A stretch of 35,018 nt of DNA from Spirochaetota bacterium. Lineage in GTDB: Bacteria > Spirochaetota > UBA4802 > JAGODF01. The number at the start of each line of letters is the position of its first letter. The stretch's first letter is position 1. Of the stretch, positions 15,524-20,654 are shown in pieces. The position numbers and the translations under genes were made by a program. The notes beneath the pieces are model-generated. The model was not told the DNA's origin and did no database searches. It saw only the letters and a program-made list of their open reading frames with translations. The DNA is taken from positions 1 to 35,018 of the forward strand of contig JAKQCH010000298.1 in assembly GCA_029573825.1 (NCBI GenBank), read 5' to 3'.

Positions 15524-15874
15524 ATGTATCCTCCCCTAATGCAGGATCAGGAGTCAATTTGTCAAAGTTCTCCCTTCAGAACTGCGGAAAACTCCCATTC
15601 TCAATGGCCTAAAGTGACATAATACAATATGAATGCAACAAAAAAAAATGTAAACAAAAAAACAATCATTCAGCGAAAAAAGTGACATATAATCCTGTAT
15701 CTTCATCATTTTTTAACATGTTATGACCGGAATAAAACGCTATACAATTACCTTTTAATCATCAGAACGCTATTGAAAACTGCAGTATAATACCCCTTCA
15801 GGCCTGGAATCTCGGTTACTGGCGCGTTTTGATACAATCAGGATATGAATTTCGGGGTTCAGGGAAGTGCATAT
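15524..15874. other. Long AT-rich leader region upstream of fliF
   Basis: No convincing gene is present. On the minus strand the region is rich in T tracts and holds two near-copies of a TATTATGTCAC / TTATATGTCAC element (15614-15624 and about 15682-15692), 68 bp apart, 90 to 160 nt before fliF. A similar element (TATTATGTCGC) lies before flgB. No clear TTGACA/TATAAT pair was found, nor a sigma-28-type GCCGATAA box. Tiny open frames here (22 to 50 codons) lack ribosome binding sites. Confidence 0.5.
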
Positions 15875-15924
15875 AAAAAGGGGATGTCTCAAAACTACCG
15901 GGACGATATTTTCAAGACACCCCC
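15875..15924 (-). terminator. Intrinsic terminator between fliE and fliF
   Basis: On the minus strand a stem of about 15 bp (15909-15924 with 15880-15894, three G-U wobbles) is followed directly by TTTTT. It lies 68 nt past the fliE stop, just after the CGGGTGTTG/CAACACCCG hairpin. It would end or attenuate the flgB-flgC-fliE transcript before fliF. Confidence 0.68.
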
Positions 15925-15945
15925 ACATAAAGCAATTTTCATGTA

Positions 15946-15985
15946 CGGGTGTTGCGACAGTCCGCATCTGCAGTGTCAACACCCG
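15946..15985 (-). terminator. Hairpin directly after fliE
   Basis: CGGGTGTTG (15946-15954) pairs perfectly with CAACACCCG (15977-15985), with a further GACA/TGTC pairing inside. It begins 7 nt after the fliE stop. There is no U tract of its own; with the next hairpin it makes a tandem terminator or a 3' end stabiliser. Confidence 0.55.
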
Positions 15986-15991
15986 CTGATT

Positions 15992-16318
15992 TTACCGAAG
16001 ATTCATAAGATCTCTGAACGCCCGTATTGCTTCATCCCTGATTGATTTTGTAAATGTCATGGCAACTTCCGCTTTCTGCGCTGCAATCATTACCGTATGA
16101 ATGTTCACGGATTCCGGTTCATAGATCATGCGCCGGGTAAGCTCTTCCGACTCCACCTGGAGATTGTTCACCTTCGCCACAGCGCTGTTCAACGCATCCG
16201 CAAATGACCCTGCCACATTATCATCAGGTGATGTTCTTCTCTCATCAGAATAATGGAGAGGGTTGGTTGACTGCATCCTTACAACATGTCCCTGGAAGCC
16301 CGGGTTCTGTATATTCAT
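15992..16318 (-). CDS. fliE: Flagellar hook-basal body protein FliE
   Basis: A 108-residue protein that joins the MS ring to the proximal rod. The C-terminal half is diagnostic: FADALNSAVAKVNNLQ, then SVNIHTVMIAAQKAEVAMTF and TKSIRDEAIRAFRDLMNLR, close to the FliE consensus. The ATG at 16318 has AGGAG 7 nt upstream and is preferred over a GTG at 16324. It begins 18 nt after a 47-residue ORF and ends just before two hairpins. Confidence 0.95.
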   Translation of the reverse strand: MNIQNPGFQGHVVRMQSTNPLHYSDERRTSPDDNVAGSFADALNSAVAKVNNLQVESEELTRRMIYEPESVNIHTVMIAAQKAEVAMTFTKSIRDEAIRAFRDLMNLR

Positions 16319-16336
16319 GATCACACTCCTGAAGCA

Positions 16337-16480
16337 TTATTGATTTCTCAGTTCAACAACGGAAGAAAAATGCATTTCGTTGCCGAAGTCCTTTGTCGCA
16401 TACCTTTTTTTTATCACATCCCTGTAATCTATATCATGGGATATATGCATTTCCATTTTACCTGTTAATTCCTTATACAT
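16337..16480 (-). CDS. Unannotated 47-residue protein between flgC and fliE
   Basis: A small ORF that fills the flgC-fliE gap. It runs from ATG at 16480 to TAA at 16337. A strong GGGAGG ribosome binding site sits about 7 nt before the start, 15 nt after the flgC stop, and its own stop is 18 nt before fliE. The product starts MYKELTGKMEMHISHDIDYR and ends SSVVELRNQ. It is soluble-looking, His/Met/charged, without a membrane segment or signal. I recognise no family. Spacing and a good ribosome binding site in a polycistronic unit support a real gene, but without comparison to relatives its coding status is an inference. Confidence 0.62.
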   Translation of the reverse strand: MYKELTGKMEMHISHDIDYRDVIKKRYATKDFGNEMHFSSVVELRNQ

Positions 16481-16495
16481 ATACGCACCTCCCTT

Positions 16496-16960
16496 TTATG
16501 CTGATATCCTGCCAAGTTCAAGAGCCTTGTTGAACATGGAACGCTCGCTGTTGATGAGCATAATATTTGCCTCATAGGATCTTGATGCAGATATCAGGTC
16601 AGTCATTTCCATTACTACATTCACATTCGGCATTTCCACATATCCTCTTTTCGGGCCGATCTTGATGGCATCCGGGTGATGAGGATCATACACAAGCCTG
16701 AGAGGCGAACTATCCTCTTCAATTTTAACGACACGCACTCCTCTGCCGAGTCCATGCTCAATTCTGTCGGGAACCAGGGGGGATTTATAGTTTGGACGTA
16801 TATTTAACGGGGCGAAAATTGCTCTTTTTCTGCGATACGCTCCTCCCTCAGGGGTCCTTGTGGTTGTGGCATTCGCTATATTGTTACTGATAACATCCAT
16901 CCGCAGCCGCTGTGCCGTAAGCCCTGAAGATGCGATATTAAAGCTTGCAAACATTCCCAT
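16496..16960 (-). CDS. flgC: Flagellar proximal rod protein FlgC
   Basis: A 154-residue rod protein with the N-terminal Flg_bb_rod motif (FNIASSGLTAQRLRMDVISN, then NIANATTTRTPEGGAYRRK), the middle PHHPDAIKIGPKRGYVEMPN stretch, and the C-terminal helix MTDLISASRSYEANIMLIN shared by FlgC proteins. AAGGAGG lies 8 nt before the ATG at 16960, 18 nt after flgB. It is exported by the flagellar type III system and assembles in the periplasmic rod. Confidence 0.97.
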   Translation of the reverse strand: MGMFASFNIASSGLTAQRLRMDVISNNIANATTTRTPEGGAYRRKRAIFAPLNIRPNYKSPLVPDRIEHGLGRGVRVVKIEEDSSPLRLVYDPHHPDAIKIGPKRGYVEMPNVNVVMEMTDLISASRSYEANIMLINSERSMFNKALELGRISA

Positions 16961-16978: not shown

Positions 16979-17407
16979 CTATACCGGCCTCATAACTAAT
17001 TTCAGCATTCTCAGATTGCTGCTGATGCTGGTCACATACGTATTGTACCGCATCTGACTCTTTGATGCGTCCACAATTTCCTTCTCTATGTCTACATTAT
17101 TTCCGTCATTTCTCATCGTGGTATTGTAATCGAGATTGATTCTCGGCCGTACGTCACGAATGTTTCTTTCCACATAAAAAGGGATGTGCCGTTCATCAGT
17201 CATTATTGCCGGATACCTGTTGTCCTGCCGGCGGTTATCTTCAACTACTCTCCGCAATTCACTCTCGAAATTCACTTCGCTTCTTTTAAAATGCGGAACA
17301 TCTACATTCGCAATGTTATTTGCGATAACCCTTCTTCTGGTCATCTCCACATCAAGGGACCGCTCAAGAAGATAATTAGTCCGCATCAATCCGCTTTGTT
17401 CAAACAT
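16979..17407 (-). CDS. flgB: Flagellar proximal rod protein FlgB
   Basis: A 142-residue rod protein, the first gene of the cluster. The rod signature appears as LDVEMTRRRVIANNIANVDV, then PHFKRSEVNFESELRRVVED, and a C-terminal helix KEIVDASKSQMRYNTYVTSI. The frame opens at 17455, but AGGAG is 8 nt before the ATG at 17407, which gives the usual N-terminus (MFEQSGLMRTNYLLERSLD). Upstream lies a strong terminator of the receiver gene and a TATTATGTCGC element also seen before fliF. Confidence 0.96.
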   Translation of the reverse strand: MFEQSGLMRTNYLLERSLDVEMTRRRVIANNIANVDVPHFKRSEVNFESELRRVVEDNRRQDNRYPAIMTDERHIPFYVERNIRDVRPRINLDYNTTMRNDGNNVDIEKEIVDASKSQMRYNTYVTSISSNLRMLKLVMRPV

Positions 17408-17477
17408 CCCGCACACTCCTAACAATTCCTTACTAACTACATCGGAATTTTGCAAAAATCCATGAGTACTTTTTTAT

Positions 17478-17653: not shown

Positions 17654-18040
17654 TTACAGGCTGATAATCACCCCAAGGGCCTCCTCGAACTCAATTGTCT
17701 TATCAAAAAAATAGTCTGCCCCGAGTTCATCACATTTCTGGCGATATTCATCATCGGTATAATTTGTAAGCATAATACAAACGGTGTCAGGGCTGTTTTC
17801 TTTCACTGACTTAAGGACTCCTATCCCGCTCCCGCTTTTCAGGCCTATATCGATCAGGGAAATGTCCGGTTTCATGTATGATATTTCCTTAATGGCATCC
17901 TCCATCCGCTCAGCCATTCCAATTATCTTCAACTGTCTGTATCCAGAAAGCAGTTCAACGATTTTTCCACGCACCATAAATGAATCTTCGACAATATATA
18001 CAGTTTTTGAAATAATCTGGTTTTTTTCCGCTATTTCCAT
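17654..18040 (-). CDS. Single-domain response regulator (receiver only)
   Basis: A 128-residue CheY-like receiver without an output domain. It has the acidic pair in IVEDSFMV near residue 14, the phospho-acceptor Asp in PDISLIDIGLKSGSG (about 59), Thr in IMLTNYTDD and the Lys in FFDKTIEF. AAGGA lies 7 nt before the ATG at 18040, which is preferred over a TTG at 18046. It has its own promoter about 110 nt upstream and a strong terminator after it. Its partner could be either nearby kinase or the flagellar switch. The sequence does not decide. Confidence 0.88.
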   Translation of the reverse strand: MEIAEKNQIISKTVYIVEDSFMVRGKIVELLSGYRQLKIIGMAERMEDAIKEISYMKPDISLIDIGLKSGSGIGVLKSVKENSPDTVCIMLTNYTDDEYRQKCDELGADYFFDKTIEFEEALGVIISL

Positions 18041-18149
18041 TAACAATTCCTTCTAATGGTATTACCTTTCACTGCCCGTGACCCCGGAAGGGTACCTCAA
18101 TCATTTCCCCGTCATTTCACACGGACATATTCAGTGATTCAATATATTT

Positions 18150-18178
18150 ATGATAGGCATCAGACATCCCGACGTCAA
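18150..18178 (-). promoter_or_regulatory. Sigma-70-type promoter of the lone receiver gene
   Basis: TTGACG (18173-18178), a 17-bp spacer and TATCAT (18150-18155) on the minus strand, each one mismatch from consensus. A start near 18143 gives a leader of about 100 nt. The receiver gene is thus expressed apart from the NarL-type gene upstream. Confidence 0.58.
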
Positions 18179-18287
18179 TACCGGAAATACCTTATTATGC
18201 ATACGAAAATGTCCTTATTCTCTGTAGGTAATAACCTTACTGCGGGTAATCCTTTATCTTACACACGTTCCGGGGGCATATATCATG

Positions 18288-18920
18288 TTAGTCTGCAAGT
18301 TTATTATCAAAACAGTATTTAATCAGTTCGGCATTATTCTTCAGGTTCATTTTCTGAAGTATGCGGTGCCGGTAGGTGCTGATTGTTTTAGCACTGAGAT
18401 AAAGCTCCTGTGCAATTCCCGTTATCGTAGCACCTGATGCAAGCCTGCACAGCACTTCATACTCCCTGTCAGTAAGTCTTTCATGAGGGGCCTTTGACAT
18501 ATTTTCATCAAACTGGTTCGCAAGCTGCTCTGCGATGGAGGAGGTGATGTACTTCCTTCCTGATAGTACTGTTTCAACTGCATGAACAAGCTTGTCGGGC
18601 AGTATTTCCTTTGTGAGATATCCTGCCGCGCCGGACTTAATTGCCCGTATCGCATACTGATCCTCGGAATGGATACTGAGTATTATCACCGGAATTTTCG
18701 GATGCTCAATTCTCAACTGTTTCAGAACCTCGATGCCATTTCTACCGGGCATGGATATATCAAGGAGAATAAGGTCATAATTTTTTTTACGGGTTTTTTC
18801 CAAAAGGTCCTGCCCGTCATCTGCTTCATCAATTTCACAAAGTTCATTGCACCCGCCCAGGATATGAATAATCCCCTTGCGGATAATGACATGGTCATCT
18901 GCGATTATTGCTTTTTTCAT
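18288..18920 (-). CDS. NarL/FixJ-family response regulator
   Basis: A 210-residue regulator: receiver at about 1-120 (DDHVIIRKGI with the acidic pair, phospho-acceptor Asp in DLILLDISMPGRNGIE, and Lys in GYLTKEI) and a LuxR-type HTH at about 145-205 (LTDREYEVLCRLASGATITG, then IAQELYLSAKTISTYRHRI). It is a DNA-binding transcription factor. The pairing with the NarX-type kinase directly upstream (102 nt gap) is typical of NarL/DegU systems. GGAG lies about 10 nt before the start. Confidence 0.93.
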   Translation of the reverse strand: MKKAIIADDHVIIRKGIIHILGGCNELCEIDEADDGQDLLEKTRKKNYDLILLDISMPGRNGIEVLKQLRIEHPKIPVIILSIHSEDQYAIRAIKSGAAGYLTKEILPDKLVHAVETVLSGRKYITSSIAEQLANQFDENMSKAPHERLTDREYEVLCRLASGATITGIAQELYLSAKTISTYRHRILQKMNLKNNAELIKYCFDNKLAD

Positions 18921-19021
18921 ATAAAATAATCTCCGGAATAGTATAATAGAAAAACCTTATTGTCCTGCCCCTATGAACACACAAAACAAGTTCCACAGGA
19001 CATTCCGCCCCGGATTGCGTT

Positions 19022-20464
19022 TTAATCCGTTAAAACATCTTTATCGAGGGGAATCTTAACAACAATCCTGGTGCCCAGGCCGTGAACACCTGTAATTTCA
19101 AAACTGCCTTTAAAAGACCGCACACGTTCACGTATACCGATTAACCCGAATGATTTTGCACTCTCGGATTCCTCGGGTGATATTCCCCGCCCGTTATCGG
19201 AGATTTCAAGGATAAGGATGCGGTTTACACAATTGAGCTCCACATGTACTGCTGATGCCCCGGCATGACGGATAACATTTGTAAGGGATTCCTGAAATAT
19301 CCTGAATAACGCAACACGAAGATCATCGGCAAGGTCATCACAGACTCTTTCGTCAAGAAGGGCTACATCAATCCGCAGAGCAGCCCGCTTTGACGTTTCT
19401 GTTGCAAACCATTTCATGGCGGCAGCAAGACCGAGATCATCGAGAATTCCGGGTCTCAGTTCAGAACAGATTTCCCGGACAGTCATAATACCTTCATCAA
19501 TTATTGATGAAATACCATTAATTTTATCAATAGTCTTTACATCTTCAGAGGATATCCTGTTCTTCAGAAATGACACATCGAACTTCATTGCCGTCAGAAG
19601 ATGCCCCAGATTATCATGAAGATCTCTGGCAATTCTTGCTCTGTCTTTCTCACGGTCTGTTTCAATATGTGCAGTGAGATCAAGGAGCTCCCTGTTATAA
19701 TTTTCAATTCTCTCCTGCGCCGCTCTTTGATCAGTAATATCAATAAGCAGTATTGCAAATGTTCCGCGCAGCGGCTGAAAACAGATAACCGAGAACCAGC
19801 GTTTTAATCTCCCGAGATACCGTTCAAACGTAACAGCTTTTCCTGAATTCTGCACAGTATTTATGTAAATTTCAATTTCATGCCCGTCACTGAAAAGTTC
19901 CGCAGTTGCAGAAAGCACATCCTCCCCCTCTGTGATTTCAAGCATGTTCAGATACGCGTTATTGACTTCCATAACAGACATCCGGCTGGTATACTCATCG
20001 GGACTATCCACAACGTGAAAAAGCCCATATCCGTTGCGCATACTTTCAAACAGCATTCTGTATTTACGTTCATTTTCCACTGTTTTCAGCTCAAGAGCAT
20101 GTTGATGTATTGCAAGCTGTACAGTTGCAGAAACCGCTTCACGGTTGAAGGGCTTCAAAATGAAACCGTAGTGCCGGATATGGGATATCCTCTGCAGTAT
20201 CTCTTCGTCCTTATAACCGGTAATATATATTACCGGTATAGTGTATTCTCTGTTAATATTCTCGGAAAGCGTAATACCGTCAATATCTCCTTCAAGATAT
20301 ATATCCATGAGAATGAGATCAGGCAGGTGCTCTTGTACCGCATCCATGACCTTATCAGCCTGCGCAATTACATCACAGACATTATATCCCTTTTCATTCA
20401 GCAGCTCCTCAAGCTCCCATGAAACAAAAGCCTCATTTTCAATTATCAGTATTTTTTTCTTCAT
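19022..20464 (-). CDS. Receiver-first hybrid histidine kinase (NarX/DegS type)
   Basis: A 480-residue cytosolic kinase. An N-terminal receiver (about 1-120) shows ILIIENEAFV, the phospho-acceptor Asp in LILMDIYLEG and Lys in FILKPFN. A PAS domain spans about 130-255 and a HisKA_3 dimerisation domain follows, with the His in RARIARDLHDNLGHLL (near 290). The HATPase ends with DNGRGISPEE and GTRIVVKIPL. No membrane segment is visible. The frame opens at 20578, but the receiver core begins right after the ATG at 20464, so this start was chosen although its ribosome binding site is weak. It is the likely kinase of the NarL-type regulator that follows. The receiver at its N-terminus means it can be controlled by another kinase. 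Confidence 0.9.
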   Translation of the reverse strand: MKKKILIIENEAFVSWELEELLNEKGYNVCDVIAQADKVMDAVQEHLPDLILMDIYLEGDIDGITLSENINREYTIPVIYITGYKDEEILQRISHIRHYGFILKPFNREAVSATVQLAIHQHALELKTVENERKYRMLFESMRNGYGLFHVVDSPDEYTSRMSVMEVNNAYLNMLEITEGEDVLSATAELFSDGHEIEIYINTVQNSGKAVTFERYLGRLKRWFSVICFQPLRGTFAILLIDITDQRAAQERIENYNRELLDLTAHIETDREKDRARIARDLHDNLGHLLTAMKFDVSFLKNRISSEDVKTIDKINGISSIIDEGIMTVREICSELRPGILDDLGLAAAMKWFATETSKRAALRIDVALLDERVCDDLADDLRVALFRIFQESLTNVIRHAGASAVHVELNCVNRILILEISDNGRGISPEESESAKSFGLIGIRERVRSFKGSFEITGVHGLGTRIVVKIPLDKDVLTD

Positions 20465-20654
20465 TGAGATCGGCCATTTGATGGTTTTATATACCTCATA
20501 AAAATAATAATACCTTATATTTCTCCAGCAATCAACAACTATTAATAATTCAAACAGCGAATCTTTCCCGCTGCTCATTTTAAAAAAAATTCATTTATTG
20601 ATCACCATTTGAAGTCATTATATTTTTTTGTATGGGTCTTACGCATATTCAGTA

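Follow-up and report, generated by a model that had tools for sequence, protein, structure and literature searches.

The rod genes flgB, flgC and fliE make up a core flagellar unit. In the window, by which we mean the whole stretch of 35,018 nt analyzed here, an open reading frame of 47 codons lies between flgC and fliE, raising the question of whether this frame, here called X, is a gene and what its product might do. A first-pass annotation had described it as filling the gap, with a GGGAGG ribosome binding site in front, and its coordinates and spacings proved exact: in the sequence, 15 nt separate the stop codon of flgC from the ATG of X, and 18 nt the stop codon of X from the ATG of fliE (Table 1). 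A mechanical ORF list places the fliE start at a GTG (16324); we prefer the ATG at 16318, since upstream of the GTG there is hardly space for a ribosome binding site, and consider this ATG, with AGGAG at the 7-nt spacing, the likeliest start. For flgB we give the ORF as listed, its true start probably being further downstream. As annotated here, X is third in a unit of four genes, flgB-flgC-X-fliE; Pfam confirms flgC and fliE in the window and has no match for X.

Table 1. Position of X and of its neighbors in the window
Feature	Position	Strand	Evidence and remarks
X, 47-codon gene	16337..16480	-	ATG at 16480, TAA at 16339-16337; homologues at the same position across the order; codon-patterned substitution
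Ribosome binding site of X, GGGAGG	16488..16493	-	7 nt before the ATG of X; comparable site before X in relatives
flgC, proximal rod protein gene, directly upstream of X	16496..16960	-	PF06429 (E 9.2e-15), PF00460 (E 2.6e-9)
fliE, directly downstream of X	15992..16318	-	PF02049 (E 1.7e-20); AGGAG 7 nt before the ATG
flgB, first gene of the unit	16979..17455	-	PF00460 (E 3.4e-4); order flgB-flgC-X-fliE in relatives

Simulated gaps of 171 nt with the same composition contained a same-strand ORF of at least 47 codons in 1.6% of cases. With this rate of chance ORFs, a single genome is only suggestive, and the coding status of X had to be decided from relatives. A single-sequence search found X in genomes of the same family (E-values 4.6e-9 to 3.9e-7). 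We fetched flgC loci and read the flgC-fliE gap in 31 of the same order; in 30 of them it contains an ORF 46-58 codons long that is preceded by a Shine-Dalgarno sequence and encodes a common motif, and in the remaining one (L029) it is interrupted by a run of N. A family profile built from the ORFs of these gaps detected one X per genome in 43 of the 46 genomes of the order, which in the genome collection used are also the 46 genomes of the class. The three genomes without X (G016, G028, G032) have no detectable flgC either, suggesting missing sequence. X was clear in most of twelve additional loci that we read; among the exceptions, one is cut by a contig end (L185) and one is broken by ambiguous bases (L191). 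In these assemblies, wherever the site is readable, X is found in the gap in practically all genomes of the order. At one locus (L188, in the small genome G041), the conserved frame, at about 680-850, has no in-frame ATG; an ATT, preceded by a ribosome binding site, is located exactly where the start is expected, and this could reflect the use of a rare start codon, a decaying gene or an assembly error.

A search of 393 Spirochaetota genomes with the family profile yielded no credible homologue outside the order. There were just five matches there, with E-values of 6.6e-4 to 0.0096, and we read them as chance matches, since four contain internal stop codons and one sits in a frame of 563 codons. 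Named relatives were obtained through flgC. Those with X are all metagenome-assembled genomes; in named spirochaetes outside the class, the flgC-fliE gap is mostly shorter than 120 nt, and the longer gaps that we read contained no X-like frame. Given its absence from the rest of the phylum, X appears to have been fixed in the class together with the rod operon. On this evidence, it is an inherited part of the flagellar machinery in one class of uncultured Spirochaetota.

Within the region of X, the two other sense frames are open in one and none of 30 genomes, respectively, and the antisense frames in 5-13 of 30. An overlapping ORF on the plus strand of the window (16286-16468) is therefore not supported. 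In ten close pairs, pN/pS was 0.10-0.46 for X, 0.01-0.08 for flgC and 0.06-0.29 for fliE, pS was similar among the three genes, and in most pairs third-position changes were in excess. This pattern is that of an ordinary coding sequence evolving faster than its neighbors, and indicates that the X protein sequence is under purifying selection. The earlier proposal of a real small protein gene in the gap thus stands: homologous ORFs keep the frame open in relatives, substitutions between them follow the codon pattern, and conservation is evident at the codon level. At the level of sequence, we consider both the coding status and the gene layout of X established.

An alignment of 38 members shows an N-terminal motif, M-x-x-E-x5-E-[IV]-x-[IV]-[ST]-H-[DEN]-[LM]-S, with basic residues after it. 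E4, H15 and S18 each reach at least 90% conservation; X of the window itself has an aspartate in place of S18. The N-terminus is the most conserved part, whereas the C-terminal half shows little conservation and differs in length among members, many of which terminate in S-[KRV]-[IV]-E-x-R. The product had been described as polar and as rich in histidine and methionine. The former holds for the members of the family, which are all polar (GRAVY -0.26 to -1.42), mostly mildly basic, and free of hydrophobic or membrane segments; the latter is not a family property, as only one histidine, that of the [ST]-H-[DEN] motif, is nearly invariant. Two AlphaFold2 models each consist of a lone helix, with a mean pLDDT of 59 and 70 and thus low or modest confidence, and are uninformative about the fold. 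Searches against Pfam, NCBIfam and PDB found nothing that fits the whole family, those against PDB returning only chance matches.

In 21 of 30 members, as read from the junction sequences, the stop codon of X overlaps the start codon of fliE, with junctions such as TAATG, TGATG and ATGA or more extensive overlaps; the final codons of X often contain the ribosome binding site of fliE. There is no overlap in the other nine, which include the member of the window, in whose family 18 to about 94 nt lie between the two genes. Given the overlap, X and FliE should be translated together in most members, though not in all, and co-translation in this majority is likely. FliE of spirochaetes has a shared N-terminal stretch ahead of the usual FliE domain, approximately G-x-x-V-x-[ML]-x-[TS]-[TS]-x-x-x-H (about 16250-16318 in the window), which was not evident in the few Bacillota FliE sequences that we saw.

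The rod of Salmonella begins with FliE, which docks on FliP/FliR and the MS ring, opens the export gate, and contacts FlgB and FlgC; the three proteins act together at the rod base (PMC8546590, PMC12403130). As X is fixed between flgC and fliE and usually overlaps fliE, it would most plausibly work at this docking and gate-opening step. We put at about even odds a reading in which X is a small soluble accessory protein at the base of the flagellum, active during proximal-rod assembly as a partner or aid of FliE or FlgB, and co-translated with FliE in most members. In such a mechanism, X would bind FliE or FlgB, or assist their assembly, at the export gate and MS ring, and the binding element would be the conserved N-terminal segment (a glutamate, then EI-x-[IV]-[ST]-H-[DE]-L-S). 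The suggestion of the first-pass annotation, a rod or export accessory factor, is also our best guess, judging from position, co-inheritance and the overlap with fliE; its other suggestion, a regulator of FliE, is possible by way of translational coupling. A more far-reaching version, which we regard as tentative and rather doubtful, makes X a previously undescribed obligate component of the flagellum base throughout the class, a partner of FliE or FlgB of about 50 residues, active at the opening of the export gate and the start of the rod. Beyond the facts that X encodes a conserved small protein, lies in the rod operon and usually overlaps fliE, this account is what we infer.

To compare possible partners, we correlated distance matrices. 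The distances of X track those of its neighbor genes; with the other genes controlled for, the partial correlation was 0.29 for FlgB (P 0.002), 0.21 for FliF (P 0.03), 0.14 for FliE (P 0.08) and 0.03 for FlgC. FlgB is thus slightly favored and FliE is not singled out, but the test names no partner, since FlgB may simply record the species tree better. That FliE is not singled out counts against the accessory-protein reading, as do the missing overlap with fliE in the window's family and the low or modest confidence of the X models.

Several other explanations have to be weighed against an accessory protein. That X is a functionless open frame produced by chance, at the rate seen in the simulated gaps, is excluded for practical purposes by its conservation across the order and the codon-patterned substitution. 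It is also quite improbable that X is mainly a translational device, in which ribosomes finishing X deliver the synthesis of FliE and the peptide itself matters little. The stop-start overlaps, and a fliE ribosome binding site located within the 3'-terminal part of X, are what such a device would have; yet purifying selection acts on the amino acids, most strongly far from the fliE junction, and nearly a third of the members (9/30), the window's included, have no overlap. We further regard it as unlikely, if somewhat less so, that X is itself exported and is built as a structural element into the proximal rod, or into the junction between FliE and the MS ring, in this class, rather than a cytoplasmic helper. 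Such a role would suit a gene that is fixed in the class and surrounded by genes that all encode exported axial proteins, and a protein most conserved at the N-terminus, where export signals lie. However, neither X nor 30 members match the rod families of FlgB and FlgC in Pfam (PF00460, PF06429), the C-terminal half varies as described, and paired terminal helices of a D0 domain are not evident. Moreover, X carries a defined motif at its N-terminus, whereas no consensus is defined for the N-terminal signal of flagellar type III export (PMC9307174).

The one lead to a known domain comes from three members of a single genus (g13), which match the Rho RNA-binding domain (PF07497) over about 36 residues without gaps (best E-value 2.6e-5), and a genome-wide search with PF07497 returned the same X loci. 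Together with the mild basicity of most members, this could suggest that X, active on RNA or Rho within the flagellar operon, derives from, or works like, a part of this cold-shock-like domain. We consider this highly improbable. The best member scores 24.4 bits, below the curated cut-off of 27 bits, and most X members, including all from other genera, have no match to PF07497. Comparison of the X family profile with Rho domains of the same order gave P-values of 0.21 and, without the matching genus, 0.22, the Rho profile being of low diversity and the comparison therefore not at its strongest, and Rho was absent from the matches of the X profile on PDB chains. Further, H15 and S18, nearly invariant in X, do not correspond to residues of Rho, half of the domain is missing from X, as is the strand with GFGFLR, and the best-matching member is modeled as a helix, with modest confidence. 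The match is confined to one genus and finds no support at the level of the whole family.

Of the proteins with which the proposed accessory protein can be compared, FliE is the nearest at hand: it is encoded in the same operon, usually in an overlapping frame, and both are small proteins tied to the rod base. Yet they are unrelated in sequence, as neither X nor the 30 members match PF02049 in Pfam and hhalign gives a probability of 0.2%. X as a split-off end of FliE or a duplicated FliE N-terminus was rejected, FliE being complete in the genomes read and profile similarity absent. A replacement for a missing rod-binding FlgJ was likewise rejected, as PF10135 is encoded elsewhere in 38 of 39 relatives; it was not detected in the window's own genome, which is incomplete. 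Since relatives have a separate FlgJ-type rod-binding protein, X would be an addition and not a substitute. FlgV, a lineage-variable accessory protein encoded in flagellar superoperons (PMC11607428), resembles X in being the product of a small accessory gene within flagellar operons, outside the enterobacterial set. Unlike X, which has no hydrophobic stretch, it has two transmembrane helices, and its gene occupies another place in the operon (PMC11607428).

Literature searches returned no description of the X gene, and the literature cited here describes no dedicated accessory protein for the gate-opening and rod-start step. The family, its position and its class-wide fixation thus appear to be new; accessory flagellar proteins outside the enterobacterial set were already known, as FlgV illustrates (PMC11607428). 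In this class, a gene that no family library describes has become fixed inside the core rod unit, and conserved small flagellar genes of this kind are overlooked when only long frames are considered. If X acts on FliE, it would point to a controllable step in laying the first layer of the rod on the export gate.

Between fliE and fliF, the window has a spacing of about 470 nt (15524-15991) that looks non-coding and contains inverted repeats; this spacing is about 190-640 nt in relatives of the class and mostly shorter in other spirochaetes. Given its length and non-coding appearance, flgB-flgC-X-fliE may be a transcription unit of its own. Upstream of flgB, three ORFs on the minus strand (17654-20578) look, from their translations, like two response regulators and a sensor kinase, and may control the flagellar genes. 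The window contains no tRNA; its sole Rfam match, far from X, is a cobalamin riboswitch (RF00174, 27447-27584, minus strand, 35.3 bits).
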